NCBI GenBank assembly: GCA_028287465.1
Contig: JAQBPO010000082.1
Coordinates: 1 to 64,000 of the forward strand
Length of the DNA stretch: 64,000 bases
Reading direction: 5' to 3'
Source: Fibrobacterota bacterium
Lineage (GTDB): Bacteria > Fibrobacterota > Fibrobacteria > UBA11236
Shown here piece by piece: positions 18,530-25,069 of this stretch (position 1 is its first letter; every line of letters begins with the position of its first letter). Under the pieces are notes generated by a model that saw nothing but the letters and a program-made list of their open reading frames with translations, had not been told where the DNA came from and made no database searches. The position numbers were made by a program, and so were the translations under genes.

Positions 18530-19957
18530 ATGAAAATCCCTTCCCGCCTCATCCCCCTCGTCGAAGACGGCATCATCGACGAAGTACTCGGACAGGTGCG
18601 GAGCGGCAAGGAAGCGGACGTATTCATCGTGCGGGTGGGGGAGGAGATCCGCTGCGCCAAGGTCTATAAGGAAGCGAACAACCGCAGCTTCCGCCAGGCG
18701 GTCCAGTACCAGGAGGGCCGCAAGGTCCAGAACAGCCGCAGCGCCCGCGCCATGTCCAAGCGCACGAACTACGGCCAGAAGGAAGCCGAGACTTCCTGGA
18801 TCAATGCCGAGGTGGAAGCCCTGAACAAATTGAGCGCCGCGGGGATCCGTGTCCCCATGCCCTTCGGATTCTTCGACGGCGTGCTCATCATGGAACTGAT
18901 CGTCGACGAGGACGGCCAGCCCGCGCCGCGGCTCAACGATATCTCGCTCTCGCCGGAGACGGCCCTGCTCTACCACGAGGAATTGATCTCCCAGATCGTG
19001 CGCATGCTCTGCCTGGGGATCATCCACGGGGATCTTTCGGAATTCAACGTCCTGGTCGACGCCGAAGGCCCCGTCATCATCGATCTCCCGCAAGCGGTCA
19101 ACGCGGCCGGCAACAACAGCGCCGGCATGATGTTCGCGCGCGACGTCAACAATATGGCGGGCTATTTCGGGCGCTTCGAACCCGGCATCCTGGGGCTGAA
19201 ATACGCGAAGGAGATCTGGGCGCTCTACGAGACGGGCAAGTTGACGCCGCATGCGGAACTCACGGGCCAATTCCAGGAACCCACCCGATCCGCCGATGTC
19301 GGCGGCGTGCTCAACGCCATCGGGGACGCCCGCAAGGAGCATGAGGATCGCGTTTTGAAGAAGGCCCTCCGGGAGGAGGAACGCAAATCGAAGAAGGTTC
19401 CCGAGGACGATCGGATGTCCGGGAAAATCCTGGACGAGGACCATGCCGCCGAGACCGGCCGGGGTGGAAATCGCGGTCATGGTGGACATGGCGGTCATAG
19501 CGGACATCGCGGGCCGGGCGATCACGGGGGACATCGCGGGCCGGGGCGGGGTCAAGGTCAAGGTCAAGGTACAGGGAACGATCGCGGACCGGGCCGGACC
19601 CAGGGCGGAGATCATGCCCATCGCGGACCCGGTGGGCAAGGCGGTCAACCGGGCCACCGGGGACCGGGCGGGAACCAGAACGCGAACAAGGGCCCTGGGG
19701 GCCAGGGCGGGGATCGCAGCCAACGCGGACCCGGCTCTCCGAACCGGCAACATGGAAACGACGCCAGGCGCCCACCCGAGGGAAAGCATTCTTCCGGGGC
19801 GGGGCCAGGCGGCAACCGCGAGCCGGGCGGAAGACAGGATGGCAATCGCGGGCCGGGTCCTGGACAAAATGGCAATCGGGGGGAATCCGCACCGCCCATG
19901 CCCAAGCGCGACTTCGGGCGCATGCCCAAAGGGCCCAGGAAACCTCCGGCGCATTAA
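18530..19957 (+). CDS. RIO1-like protein kinase with long Gly/His/Arg-rich tail
   Basis: The first ~285 residues are a RIO-type atypical kinase: a glycine-poor ATP loop (GQVRSGKEADVFIV), Lys in CAKVYKE, the catalytic loop HGDLSEFNVL and metal-binding IIDLPQAV. This is the usual bacterial RIO1 size. From about residue 305 to 475 the protein is low-complexity, built from Gly, His, Arg, Gln, Asn and Pro, with repeated RGPG, HGG and GGQGG units, and ends in a basic PKRDFGRMPKGPRK segment. It resembles RGG-type RNA-binding disordered regions of eukaryotes. RIO kinases act in ribosome maturation in eukaryotes and archaea; bacterial roles are little known. AGGA lies 5 bases before the ATG. The tail is open in the kinase frame throughout, so it is translated unless the sequence has an error. 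Confidence 0.9.
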   Translation: MKIPSRLIPLVEDGIIDEVLGQVRSGKEADVFIVRVGEEIRCAKVYKEANNRSFRQAVQYQEGRKVQNSRSARAMSKRTNYGQKEAETSWINAEVEALNKLSAAGIRVPMPFGFFDGVLIMELIVDEDGQPAPRLNDISLSPETALLYHEELISQIVRMLCLGIIHGDLSEFNVLVDAEGPVIIDLPQAVNAAGNNSAGMMFARDVNNMAGYFGRFEPGILGLKYAKEIWALYETGKLTPHAELTGQFQEPTRSADVGGVLNAIGDARKEHEDRVLKKALREEERKSKKVPEDDRMSGKILDEDHAAETGRGGNRGHGGHGGHSGHRGPGDHGGHRGPGRGQGQGQGTGNDRGPGRTQGGDHAHRGPGGQGGQPGHRGPGGNQNANKGPGGQGGDRSQRGPGSPNRQHGNDARRPPEGKHSSGAGPGGNREPGGRQDGNRGPGPGQNGNRGESAPPMPKRDFGRMPKGPRKPPAH

Positions 19958-20004: not shown

Positions 20005-20029
20005 CGCGGGAATCCGATCGATTCCCGCG
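20005..20029 (+). repeat. 10-bp inverted repeat between RIO kinase and DUF3332 genes
   Basis: CGCGGGAATC (20005-20014) pairs exactly with GATTCCCGCG (20020-20029) around a 5-base loop. No T-run follows on the plus strand. It may be a rho-independent-like end without a U-tract, an mRNA-stabilising hairpin, or an operator for the next gene, which starts 41 bases later. Confidence 0.45.
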
Positions 20030-20069: not shown

Positions 20070-20594
20070 ATGAAAAATTCCAGCCGGATCCTTGCCACCC
20101 TAGTGGGCGCCGCCATGCTCTTGCAAGTGCAAGGGTGCTACGGCAATTTCTCCTTGACCCGCAAGGTCTACAATTGGAACGGCACCCTGGGTGACAAGTG
20201 GATCAATTCCGTGGTGATGTTCGCTCTCGCCATCGTCCCGGTTTACGGAGCCTGCGGATTCCTCGACTGGGTCATCTTCAACCCGATCCAGTTCTGGACG
20301 GGAAAGAATCCCGTGACCCTCAATGCCGGGGAAAAGGATATCCAGATGGTGCAATGGAAAGGCGGGGAGTATCGCCTGACGGCCACCACCAACCGCCTGG
20401 ACGTGCAGCAAATCATCGACGGGAAGCCCGGAGCGCCCGTCAGCCTCGTCTACGATATCCGCACCCAGTCCTGGTCGGCGGGCAACGCCAAGGAACAGCA
20501 CCGGATCATAGAAATGGTGAGCGAGGACGGCCGGGTCGCCGACCTGGTCTACCCCGACGGGCACAAGCAACGGGTGGAACTCGCGCAAGAGTGA
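20070..20594 (+). CDS. DUF3332-family lipoprotein
   Basis: This 174-residue protein begins with a lipoprotein-type signal (TLVGAAMLLQVQGCYG, Cys23) followed by the family hallmark GNFSLTRKVYNWNGTLGDKW. A hydrophobic segment (VVMFALAIVPVYGACGFLDWVIFN) follows, then a soluble beta-rich domain. This layout fits DUF3332, a family of unknown function widespread in Gram-negative bacteria. AGGAAA lies 6 bases before ATG 20070. A strong hairpin follows the stop, so it is probably monocistronic. Confidence 0.85.
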   Translation: MKNSSRILATLVGAAMLLQVQGCYGNFSLTRKVYNWNGTLGDKWINSVVMFALAIVPVYGACGFLDWVIFNPIQFWTGKNPVTLNAGEKDIQMVQWKGGEYRLTATTNRLDVQQIIDGKPGAPVSLVYDIRTQSWSAGNAKEQHRIIEMVSEDGRVADLVYPDGHKQRVELAQE

Positions 20595-20656: not shown

Positions 20657-23600
20657 TCAGGGAAGCGCGCTGGCCTTGAGGATGCGGTGCCCGGACCAAG
20701 TCCGTCCGGACCCTGTCCGTCCGGACCCTGTCCCGCCTGAACCGTTCCGGCCCTCGGCGGTAACCTCGATCAGATAGACCCCGGGCGCGACCGCACCGTT
20801 CTTTCCCATCAATTCCCCGGCCTTCCAGGTATGGGTCCCGGCCCCGGAAACCCCTTCTACCATGCGGCCCAGGCATCTGCCGTCCGACGTCCAAATCCGC
20901 ACTTCCAGGCGCGCCGCTTCGGGCAGGATGACCGAAAGGACGAAGGATCCCGCGGCCGCCCGTAAGGCGCACCGGAAGGGCCCCGCGGATTCCACTCCCC
21001 GGATCAAATCGCCCACCCCCGAAAGGGCCTCCGTCGTTCCGGCATAGACGAGCAGGGTATCCCCCTCCGTAACCGGCAGGCTACCGCCTTCCTCCAGGCG
21101 GTATTTGAGGCGCCGGGCCGGGGAGACGGCCCAGGCTTGCCAGCCCTCCGGGAGGGATGCGTTCCTTACCGTCAAGCGGTCTATCTCCTGCCGGCCGTTC
21201 GCGACCAGGGTCCAGGCCATGGCGGCGCCTTTTTCCATCGGCACGAAATCGCCGACCAGGGCATGGCCGTCGCGGTCAATCCGGATTCCGCCTTCCATCC
21301 GTTGCGGCGGGGACATTTCGTCTTCCCGGCCCACGCCTTCGCGGGCGATTGCGTCCGCCCCGATCTTGAGGGGAATCCCGTGCCCCGGATCGAGGGTGAT
21401 TTCCATCCATCCCCCCGAGGCCGCCTTGGGTGCGGAAACCCCGTTCTCGGGAAAGGCGCGTCCCGATCCGGGACCGATGCGCAACACCGTGTCCGTGCCG
21501 GAATAGTGGACGTAGTACCCTTCCCAGGGCCTCAGGGTATCGAGCACGGCGTACGCCTTGCCATCGAAGCCGATGAGGGTCTGAAAGGAGGAGCTCCGAT
21601 AGGCATCTCCGTCGCTGCGGGAAATGGGCCATGCCAACGGACGGAAGCCCGGGCAGGTCACCATGTTCCACCCGTGGATGAGATGGATCGGGAACAGGCC
21701 GTCCGTATCGGAGGAAAAGGTCCTGGAGGCGGGAAAGGCCAAGTTGGGCGTGGCCGCCTTGGAGGCGAGCCAGAAACCTTTTCCCATGGGCAGCGCATCG
21801 TCGTCCTCGATGAAGGCGTACCCGGCCTCCGTGCCTGGTCCGGTCTTCCACAAAGCGCCGATGAGGCCGTTCGTTCCGCTGCCCTCCGCCAGGCTGCTCA
21901 AGGTGATCGGGTCCTGGGTATTGATCGGCATGCCGACCAGCTTCCATTCGAGGCCGGAAGGAATGGCGATGGGGGATTGGAAGGCCGGGAGATCGCGGCC
22001 CAAGGTCAGGGCCGTGGCCGCCCCGGGGGGGTAGGAAACGATCTGGGCATGGTCCGTGGCCAGGAAGCGGATCTCGGCGGGGGATTGGCGATCGGTCCCG
22101 AACGGGAAGGAAAAGCCCACCGTGTCGCCCGCGGTGGCCGCCCACCAGCCCAGGCTGTCATGAACGCCGTTCCAGATGTGGAACATCACTTGGGGATTCG
22201 CGACATTGTCCTCGATCGCGTAGGTGACATGGGCCGAATCCCCGCCGAACAGGGACTTGCCCGCCAGGCTCACCTTAGGGGCCAGGGTATCGCGGGCCCA
22301 GAAATAGTCGCCCGCCATGGGGATCATCAGCTTCTGCCCGGACCGGGGCATCCACAGGATGGCGCCGTTCTCCTCCAGGCGGTAGAGGGATAGCGAGGCC
22401 ATGTCGAGGCTGGAGGAAAGCATCAGGCCCGGGAAGACCGAACGGGTATCTGTCGCGGCGATCCGGAATCGGGACCCTACCTTGTCGAACCCCGCCGGAG
22501 GCGGGTTCCAGGCCGGCCCGGCGGAAACCACCACGGGGGCCTGGGCGTCCTGGGCCGGATAGTCGATCCAATGTCCCGCGTCCAGGTTCACCGTGCCCCC
22601 GGCCTTCAAGGTGTCCCCGGAAGCGACCGGATTGATCACGAGGGTGTACGCGGTCGAAAGGATATCGCTTCCGATCCCGTCCGCGTAGGCCCTGGCGTTG
22701 AGGACGGAGGTTTTCCGGATCAGGATGGGCGGACCGTACAAGGCGGTCGTGGACTTCGCCGGATCCGGTTCGCTTCCGTCCAGGGTATAATAGATGGCGG
22801 CCCCGGCGGTAGCGCTCGTCAGCCGGACGCTCTGGGGGTCATTGTACGGCCCTCCGGGCGGGTCCGCGGTGGGCGCGGCCACGGTAGGCTCCACCAGCTT
22901 CTGGCTCGTGACCGGCCCCAAGGCCACGGCTTTGGAGCCTTCCTTCTGCGTTTCGTGCGCGAGCTTGATCCAATCCGCCGAGCGCGCCACTCCCGACAAT
23001 TGCACCGCATCGATGTCGCCGGTGAATCCGTACTGAAAGGTCCCGTCGCTCCAGTGGGCGCATCCGATCGCGAAACCCGAATCGGAGACGGCGTAATTGT
23101 CCGCGGTCATCGAGCCCAGCGAGACCCCGTTTTCGTAGAGCGACATGGAATTCCCGGTATAGGTCAGGGCGAGATGATGCCATTTTCCGTCGTTGATCGC
23201 CGCATTGTAGGTGACGCCCAGATCCCCGCCGGCCCGCAACCCGCTCCAAAAGGCGGCCTTGCCCGAAAGGGAGACCAATCCGAAATCGCCGCTGGAAGCT
23301 CCCGGGGACTCCATGCCGAACAGGGTGGGGTAGAAGATGTAGGTGGGACCCGTACCGCCGCCGCTACCGATCTCCCTTGCCCACATCGAGATCGTGAAGG
23401 CCGTGCGGCCCTTGGTCAGGGATGCCGGTATGCCCACATGGTCGGACCCCCCCGCGAAACGGAACGCGCCGCCGATGATGCCGGCCACGTCCCGCGTGGC
23501 CCCGGCCACGGATCCGGTCCCCGACCCGGATATCGCGTCGACCGCATCACCGTCCTTTTCGTCGAAATGCCAGACGCCGGCGAAACCGTCCTGGGGACGG

Positions 23601-25069
23601 AAGACGGACCCTCTCGCGGCCCCGGCGGGAGCCAGGCCATTGCCCCAATACATGGTTACGAAGTCCGCCGCGGTGTTGCTCTTTACGAGAGGGACCCGCA
23701 CCCAGATTTCCGCCTCGGACAGGACGGGATCCCAACGTTCGATCTCGAAGGGGAGATGCGTCCCATCCTTGTCCGCGAAGCGGATATCCTTGCCGCCGGC
23801 CATGAACTGGGTGAAGTCCAAGGTGCCCTTGACGAAGCGCAGGAGCATGGGGAAACCCGCCACCGGGCCGGATATCACGGCTCCCGTGGAGGTGGTGTTG
23901 AACGTGACGGTCCGCTTGAAATTCCATCGGGAATAATCCTCCGGTTCCGCGGGAATGGAATCCTGCAGGAACTCGAAGGAAAGGACGCGGGAGCCCGGCT
24001 TCTGGGTTTCATAGGAAAGCTTGATCCAATCGGGAGTGCGGCTCACCAGGGAGATTTCGGGCTCGTCGATTTTCCCATGGAAATAGCCGTCCGCATGCCA
24101 ATTGGAGTGGCCCAGGTAATTTCTGGTGCGTACTACGTTCGGCAGAAAGTATCCGTTCTTGGCCGACAAACCCTTTGCGCCGTTCTTGTAGATTGCGACT
24201 TCCTGTCCGGAGTACGTCACCGCGACATGCATCCAGGCGTTCGCCTCGATGCTCCCGGGCAATACCTGTATGCTGTTCCCTGCGGTCCCGGCCATGGTGA
24301 CGAAGGATAACCCATTGGAGCTGTCCTGCCGGGACAGTACGATGTTATCAATCCCTTCTCCGTTTCCCAGATCGAAAATCCGTTCCCATAGTCCCAGGCC
24401 GGATGAGAACACCCACCCCGAATAGGTGAATCCCTTGGACATATCCCCAAATCCTTTTCCCAGATCCAGGTAGGCCCCGGCCGGCGCCCCGTTCAGGCTG
24501 TCGGCGTAGCCGATGACGCCGGACGTGCGCTCATTCCCGGTAAAGTTGACGGGCGTGGCATGGTTGCCCGTGCCGACGGAGTTGGCGCGCGCCTGGACGC
24601 CGCCCTCGCCGAGATGCCAGGCTCCCGCGAAGCCGTTTTCCGCGGGAAAGACCTTGGATCCGTCCGAGGCCATGATGGCGGCGGGGTTTCCCCAATAACA
24701 CTTGATGAAGTCCTTGTCGCTGGCCCCGTCGATTTGGGGAACCTTCACCCAGAATTCCGCCTTCATGCCGGCCTTGTCCCAGCGTTCGACCTGATGGTTC
24801 AACGGGGTCCCGTCCGCGTCCACGAAGCGCACGTCCGCCCCATCGGCCCTGGCCTCCTCGAAGATCCGCGACGGACCCGCCAGGCGCACCAGCACCGGGA
24901 AATCCTTGACGGGAGCGGTGATGCCGGCCCCGGCGGGGGTGGTATTGAACAGGATGACGGCAGAATGCGGCCAGGCGGACAGATCTTCGGCGCGACCGGT
25001 TCCGCGGAAAAGGAGAATTACCAGGAACGCCGCGAGGAACGGTCCGGAGTTACGGAGCAGTTGTTTCAT
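20657..25069 (-). CDS. Large secreted DUF2341/LamG surface protein with C-terminal sorting module
   Basis: This 1470-residue exported protein has a signal peptide (MKQLLRNSGPFLAAFLVILLF...GRA). The N-terminal ~700 residues are two copies of a DUF2341 module (DFPVLVRL...VERWDKA; GFPMLLRF...IERWDPV) followed by a LamG/concanavalin-type module (GAWHLGEGGVQ; GVWHFDEKDGD), both ending in the same WIKLSYETQKPGS / WIKLAHETQKEGS motif. A chitobiase-C-terminal-like module follows (about 735-800; IYYTLDGSEPDP). The next ~550 residues are beta-rich and not recognised. The last ~100 residues are FlgD/T9SS-like (LEVRIWTSDGRCLG, GVYLIEVTA), with a TGSGR repeat inserted before the final strand. The architecture suggests glycan binding or adhesion at the cell surface; no catalytic domain is recognised. 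Confidence 0.85.
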   Translation of the reverse strand: MKQLLRNSGPFLAAFLVILLFRGTGRAEDLSAWPHSAVILFNTTPAGAGITAPVKDFPVLVRLAGPSRIFEEARADGADVRFVDADGTPLNHQVERWDKAGMKAEFWVKVPQIDGASDKDFIKCYWGNPAAIMASDGSKVFPAENGFAGAWHLGEGGVQARANSVGTGNHATPVNFTGNERTSGVIGYADSLNGAPAGAYLDLGKGFGDMSKGFTYSGWVFSSGLGLWERIFDLGNGEGIDNIVLSRQDSSNGLSFVTMAGTAGNSIQVLPGSIEANAWMHVAVTYSGQEVAIYKNGAKGLSAKNGYFLPNVVRTRNYLGHSNWHADGYFHGKIDEPEISLVSRTPDWIKLSYETQKPGSRVLSFEFLQDSIPAEPEDYSRWNFKRTVTFNTTSTGAVISGPVAGFPMLLRFVKGTLDFTQFMAGGKDIRFADKDGTHLPFEIERWDPVLSEAEIWVRVPLVKSNTAADFVTMYWGNGLAPAGAARGSVFRPQDGFAGVWHFDEKDGDAVDAISGSGTGSVAGATRDVAGIIGGAFRFAGGSDHVGIPASLTKGRTAFTISMWAREIGSGGGTGPTYIFYPTLFGMESPGASSGDFGLVSLSGKAAFWSGLRAGGDLGVTYNAAINDGKWHHLALTYTGNSMSLYENGVSLGSMTADNYAVSDSGFAIGCAHWSDGTFQYGFTGDIDAVQLSGVARSADWIKLAHETQKEGSKAVALGPVTSQKLVEPTVAAPTADPPGGPYNDPQSVRLTSATAGAAIYYTLDGSEPDPAKSTTALYGPPILIRKTSVLNARAYADGIGSDILSTAYTLVINPVASGDTLKAGGTVNLDAGHWIDYPAQDAQAPVVVSAGPAWNPPPAGFDKVGSRFRIAATDTRSVFPGLMLSSSLDMASLSLYRLEENGAILWMPRSGQKLMIPMAGDYFWARDTLAPKVSLAGKSLFGGDSAHVTYAIEDNVANPQVMFHIWNGVHDSLGWWAATAGDTVGFSFPFGTDRQSPAEIRFLATDHAQIVSYPPGAATALTLGRDLPAFQSPIAIPSGLEWKLVGMPINTQDPITLSSLAEGSGTNGLIGALWKTGPGTEAGYAFIEDDDALPMGKGFWLASKAATPNLAFPASRTFSSDTDGLFPIHLIHGWNMVTCPGFRPLAWPISRSDGDAYRSSSFQTLIGFDGKAYAVLDTLRPWEGYYVHYSGTDTVLRIGPGSGRAFPENGVSAPKAASGGWMEITLDPGHGIPLKIGADAIAREGVGREDEMSPPQRMEGGIRIDRDGHALVGDFVPMEKGAAMAWTLVANGRQEIDRLTVRNASLPEGWQAWAVSPARRLKYRLEEGGSLPVTEGDTLLVYAGTTEALSGVGDLIRGVESAGPFRCALRAAAGSFVLSVILPEAARLEVRIWTSDGRCLGRMVEGVSGAGTHTWKAGELMGKNGAVAPGVYLIEVTAEGRNGSGGTGSGRTGSGRTWSGHRILKASALP
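20701..20730 (-). repeat. 15-bp tandem repeat (two exact copies) coding TGSGR units
   Basis: TCCGTCCGGACCCTG is present exactly twice in a row, with a degenerate third copy at 20686-20700. It is in frame within the C-terminal module of the 1470-residue protein and encodes TGSGR TGSGR TWSGH. Such 15-bp units can change copy number by slippage without breaking the frame. Confidence 0.75.

Follow-up and report, generated by a model that had tools for sequence, protein, structure and literature searches.

We found that a PA4780-family RIO1-like kinase of a Fibrobacterota bacterium continues beyond its kinase domain into a long disordered tail, and that most orthologues in the phylum, however different their tails, end in the same short peptide. 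We read this protein as a probably active kinase with a hypervariable disordered tether, a terminal docking peptide and a repeat expansion peculiar to its lineage, with a probability of slightly better than even (about 0.52). According to this reading, a weakly basic disordered linker would join the kinase to a short terminal peptide, which reads RDFGR in the window protein and WGR(R) elsewhere in the phylum. This peptide would be the site by which the kinase docks onto a partner; the linker, a flexible tether, would depend little on its precise sequence for this role.

An intact RIO1-like kinase gene with a disordered C-terminal tail

The window, by which we mean the whole 64,000-nucleotide stretch that was analysed, is part of contig 76 in a 5.8 Mb genome. 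Its features relevant to the kinase are listed below.

18530..19957, + strand: the complete ORF; its 475-aa product is a PA4780-family RIO1-like kinase that carries a C-terminal tail (open for 475 codons, tail continuous with kinase; profile matches)
18530..19351, + strand: RIO1-like kinase domain, residues 1-274, with GKEADVF, HGDLSEFN and IIDLPQ kept (NF041645, Pfam RIO1, invariant columns)
19352..19393, + strand: charged helix prolonging the kinase C-lobe, residues 275-288 (AlphaFold2 helix 257-288)
19394..19954, + strand: linker and tip (residues 289-475), of low complexity, predicted to be disordered and rich in Gly, Arg, His, Gln and Pro, with a net charge of +12 and a single aromatic residue (AlphaFold2 pLDDT near 45 for the greater part; composition)
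19463..19570, + strand: imperfect tandem repeats, each period (18, 9, 27 or 6 bases) a whole number of codons; probably expanded by slippage (repeat analysis)
19907..19921, + strand: RDFGR, residues 460-464, likely a degenerate copy of the (R/K)EWGR(R) of the orthologues (MAFFT alignment; the only aromatic residue of the tail)

The model NF041645 (PA4780-family RIO1-like kinase) matched the window protein over its full length, residues 1-274 of 274, with 441.9 bits against a cut-off of 350; the model stops at residue 274, whereas the window protein has 201 more. Pfam RIO1 matched the kinase with 132.4 bits. The closest PDB entry by sequence was human RIO1 (E 1.2e-15), and the best fold matches of the modelled G003 orthologue were human RIOK1 in late pre-40S particles, at about 25% identity. 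The RIO1 domain is thus common to this kinase and to Rio1/RIOK1 of archaea and eukaryotes, but our analysis found no evidence for a link between the window kinase and the ribosome. GKEA, HGDLSEFN and IIDLPQ, which we take to be the nucleotide loop and the motifs of the catalytic Asp and the metal-binding Asp, respectively, were all present, and their core columns were invariant across 37 aligned family members, suggesting that the window enzyme is probably active. One other Fibrobacterota kinase, L058 (G012:C537), has HGY instead of the HGD of the others, by which the catalytic Asp would be lost; a sequencing error could account for this, and L058 is cut short within its tail by the contig end.

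The 201 residues past position 274 comprise 57 Gly, 24 Arg, 23 Pro, 13 His, 12 Gln and a single aromatic residue. Seven of the His fall between residues 305 and 335. AlphaFold2 gave a pLDDT of about 45 across most of 301-470 and predicted no structure from the end of the helix (288) to residue 475. The sequence-only reading had described a disordered tail fused to a normal RIO1 domain. The intact 475-residue ORF, the NF041645 and RIO1 matches and the predicted disorder bear this out, the tail being genuine and in frame with the domain. The stretch it reported corresponds to residues 304-475 (172 aa), with the codon start at 19439, one base from the 19440 that it gave.

We compared the Gly/Arg/His/Gln/Pro content of the best 150-residue stretch among 294 called genes, sampled from the window and 400 kb of the same genome. 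The kinase protein ranked highest (0.75, against a mean maximum of 0.31), and we read the next-ranked entries as out-of-frame 5' extensions. A whole-genome search with the tail as query found no second copy of it. The periods of the tandem repeats, all multiples of three, fit growth of the tail by in-frame slippage, and the Gly/His-rich make-up would then be a lineage-specific repeat expansion.

A short terminal peptide is kept while the linker diverges

Among 167 Fibrobacterota genomes, NF041645 scored above its cut-off in 12, and a further genome (G086) had a full-length match below the cut-off. Of these 13 orthologues, that of G012 was left out of the tip count as it ends at a contig end, which gave 12 complete C-termini, the window included. 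The number of residues after the kinase domain was 9, 9, 19, 60, 70, 74, 82, 106, 125, 143, 179 and 201, so that 9 of the 12 have tails of at least 60 residues. Tail composition ranged from Pro-rich (G004, 28% Pro) to Gly-rich (the window, 28% Gly); most orthologues have Pro-rich tails and do not share the Gly-rich make-up of the window. The linkers have diverged far more than the domains that carry them. Between the window and G004, 232 of 274 kinase positions are common but only 35 of 91 tail positions. Between G087 and G088, which belong to another family of the phylum, the kinase domains agree at 223 of 274 positions and the aligned tails at 42 of 122, with WGRR at the end of both proteins.

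WGR(R) was present within the last 15 residues in 10 of the 12 orthologues, the exceptions being the window, with RDFGR, and G086, with no tip. When the tails were shuffled in 20,000 rounds, a WGR tip appeared in at most 2 of 12, a figure that flatters the motif as the pattern was picked after the ends had been seen and that ignores shared ancestry. None of the 294 sampled genes of the window's genome had WGR in its last 15 residues. In G003 (KKKEWGR) and G002 (KKTEWGR) the tip follows the kinase domain directly, indicating that it is retained even without a linker.

MAFFT, unaided, aligned RDFGR of the window with KEWGR of G003 and with EWGR of others. RDFGR lacks the Trp, and 11 further residues follow it. 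From these five residues, RDFGR is likely homologous to the WGR tip, that is, a degenerate copy of it. A second Trp patch (such as KKWEPR or IWEPKRK) lies 12 to 22 residues past the kinase in L050, L052, L055, L058, L068 and L069; the window protein does not have it.

In a quick tree of 106 kinase domains, the main Fibrobacterota clade came out next to sequences from gammaproteobacteria and G087 and G088 branched elsewhere, which hinted at two independent origins of WGRR within Fibrobacterota. We withdrew this idea after an AU test: a single clade for both tip-bearing lineages was not rejected (p 0.772), and constraining the tree in this way improved it by 20.4 log units. The ten tips may therefore be one inherited state seen ten times and kept while the linkers were rewritten.

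The search for a partner of the terminal peptide

SSB and FtsZ have their parts in the order found here: a folded domain comes first, then a variable disordered linker and lastly a constant terminal peptide. In these two proteins the short conserved end behind the linker binds partners, as described in two papers (PMC12143593; PMC10906006). There is no sequence relation to either protein, the tip here being WGRR or RDFGR. The linker is predicted to be disordered and varies between orthologues as in SSB and FtsZ; the terminal peptide is conserved as WGR in the 10 orthologues, and the window has only the likely degenerate RDFGR. For a RIO kinase, an excerpt of PMC5374425 describes the C-terminal domain of yeast Rio1 as a docking site for CK2.

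Docking of the tip on its own kinase was considered and dropped. AlphaFold2 models of the window protein and the G003 protein gave no sign of the tip folding back (window residues 461-466 below 50; last block of G003 at 59). Nor did the gene surroundings reveal a conserved operon: we compared the ORFs in a 22-kb part of the window with those in 5 to 20 kb of DNA around the gene from 11 other genomes, and no neighbour recurred in more than three of these. Of ten neighbouring genes taken from seven other loci, nine had Pfam results unrelated to each other and the tenth matched no family. We also rejected WGRR as a general protein tag. DNA matches to W-G-R/S-R/S-stop were inspected in G000 (19 of 20), G004 (14 of 15, kinase excluded), G008 (5 of 5), G001 (5 of 9), G003 (5 of 9) and G087 (5 of 6), and only one of them lay behind an open frame of at least 150 codons (G004:C52, 422 codons). 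Neither the gene neighbourhood nor these matches pointed to a partner.

Downstream of the kinase gene, CGCGGGAAT and ATTCCCGCG form an inverted repeat, separated by 7 bases, at window positions 20005-20029, before the next gene. It is perhaps a terminator without a T run; a terminator scan listed none. Directly downstream is a gene for a small DUF3332-family protein (125 bits) with a lipoprotein-like start (20070-20594), and a 1470-residue protein is encoded at 20657-25069 on the minus strand. By resemblance, the latter seems to contain LamG-like units in repeat and, at its C-terminus, a domain of the sorting type.

Tails of related kinases outside Fibrobacterota

In the proteobacterial relatives that we saw, tails are mostly short; the proteins in the Stutzerimonas and Pseudomonas records finish with PPW followed by two or three more residues. 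Long tails were found in a second phylum-level group, that of G167 (Deltaproteobacteria bacterium UBA796); L043, which falls near it in the tree, carries the label Myxococcota. In the G167 group, 51 of 188 genomes scored above the NF041645 cut-off. Of fifty loci examined, 47 had an ORF that was complete and aligned with a high enough score to be counted. Tails of at least 60 residues occurred in 24 of the 47 and tails of at most 15 residues in 21, and 20 of the 24 long tails had at least 15% Arg. The sequence-only reading had held such tails to be rare in bacteria, which does not agree with these counts for PA4780-family kinases. Some of the Arg-rich tails carry true tri-RG or di-RGG clusters. 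The tails of L093, L095, L109 and L245, also of this group, are built of long regular repeats.

Eight of the 25 complete long tails (the 24 and that of L043) contained DLDx(F/L/W)L within their last 30 residues; shuffled tails contained it at most once in any of 5,000 rounds, a figure that again favours the motif as it was chosen after the ends had been seen. We put forward, tentatively and at somewhat less than even odds, a wider proposal: bacterial RIO kinases of at least two phylum-level groups would carry a hypervariable Arg/Gly/Pro-rich tether in the style of SSB and FtsZ, together with a lineage-specific docking peptide (WGRR or DLDx(F/L/W)L), which would recruit the kinase to a partner, for example the ribosome-assembly machinery.

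Alternative readings of the tail

The tail might instead be an RGG/RG-type RNA-binding, condensing region that keeps the kinase on rRNA or ribosomes. Its net charge over residues 289-475 and its 11 RG dipeptides agree with such a role, as do the nine other Fibrobacterota tails of at least 60 residues, all net positive (+6 to +18, among them that of L058, which is cut by the contig end). The nearest structural match of the kinase is RIO1 on pre-40S particles, and Arg-rich tails, some with tri-RG or di-RGG clusters, are common in the G167 group. RGG boxes are defined by a di-RGG or a tri-RG cluster. Although the window tail resembles RGG/RG-box proteins in being Gly/Arg-rich, net positive and disordered, it contains neither RGG-X(0-4)-RGG nor RG-X(0-4)-RG-X(0-4)-RG, and it has one RGG in all, so that the term RGG-like, used in the sequence-only reading, does not fit it. 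It also has one aromatic residue only; the orthologous tails are mostly Pro-rich and do not share its Gly-rich make-up, and G002 and G003 have no linker whatsoever. We consider this reading of the window tail unlikely, though not negligible. A weakly basic linker may still bind RNA, and this is most conceivable for the Arg-rich tails in the G167 group.

A second alternative is that slippage enlarged the tail almost neutrally; it would then have no specific role and be tolerated since it lies behind a folded domain. Short tandem repeats would be expected of such a tail, and its codon use is atypical for the genome (codon score −21, compared with +133 for the domain). The post-domain length, which ranges from 9 to 201 among the orthologues, and the loss of the tip Trp in the window point in the same direction. 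However, 10 of the 12 orthologues have kept the tip despite scrambled linkers, 9 of the 12 retain tails of at least 60 residues, and an aromatic-Gly-Arg remnant is still present in the window. A tail without any specific role is therefore rather improbable in our judgement.

The His residues of the window tail, 13 in 201 with seven of them clustered, would suit a metal-binding tail, but between 0 and 8 His are found per tail in the other Fibrobacterota proteins. His richness is thus at most a trait of the window's lineage, and the metal binding that the sequence-only reading had suggested is very improbable as the role of the tail.

We give equally little credence to an artefact, that is, a frameshift or mis-assembly past the kinase domain. 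The tail scores poorly in codon use, an alternative open frame in its region is nearly as bad (−29), and third-position GC falls from 0.86 in the kinase domain to 0.65 in the tail. Yet it also falls in orthologues with an intact tip (L050, 0.89 to 0.70; L052, 0.77 to 0.65), indicating that the drop is no sign of a frameshift, and the tip-like motif occurs in frame shortly before the end of the ORF. Orthologues that end at the kinase domain, combined with frameshift signs in this region, had been named beforehand as evidence against a genuine tail. The former almost exist, in G002 and G003; the frameshift signs were absent, given the like GC drop in orthologues and the in-frame motif.

Implications for bacterial RIO kinases

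We found no description of the function of PA4780-family bacterial RIO kinases in the literature searched, and a search for RhlE-type bacterial tails yielded nothing. The Gly/Arg/His composition of a single tail can mislead; comparison with orthologues shifts the focus from its bulk to the last few residues, the terminal peptide that the sequence-only reading had not noticed. The wider proposal, an SSB/FtsZ-style C-terminus in at least two phylum-level groups, would, if true, open a way to the substrate of bacterial RIO kinases. The short conserved tip, WGRR, is a concrete bait for finding a partner.
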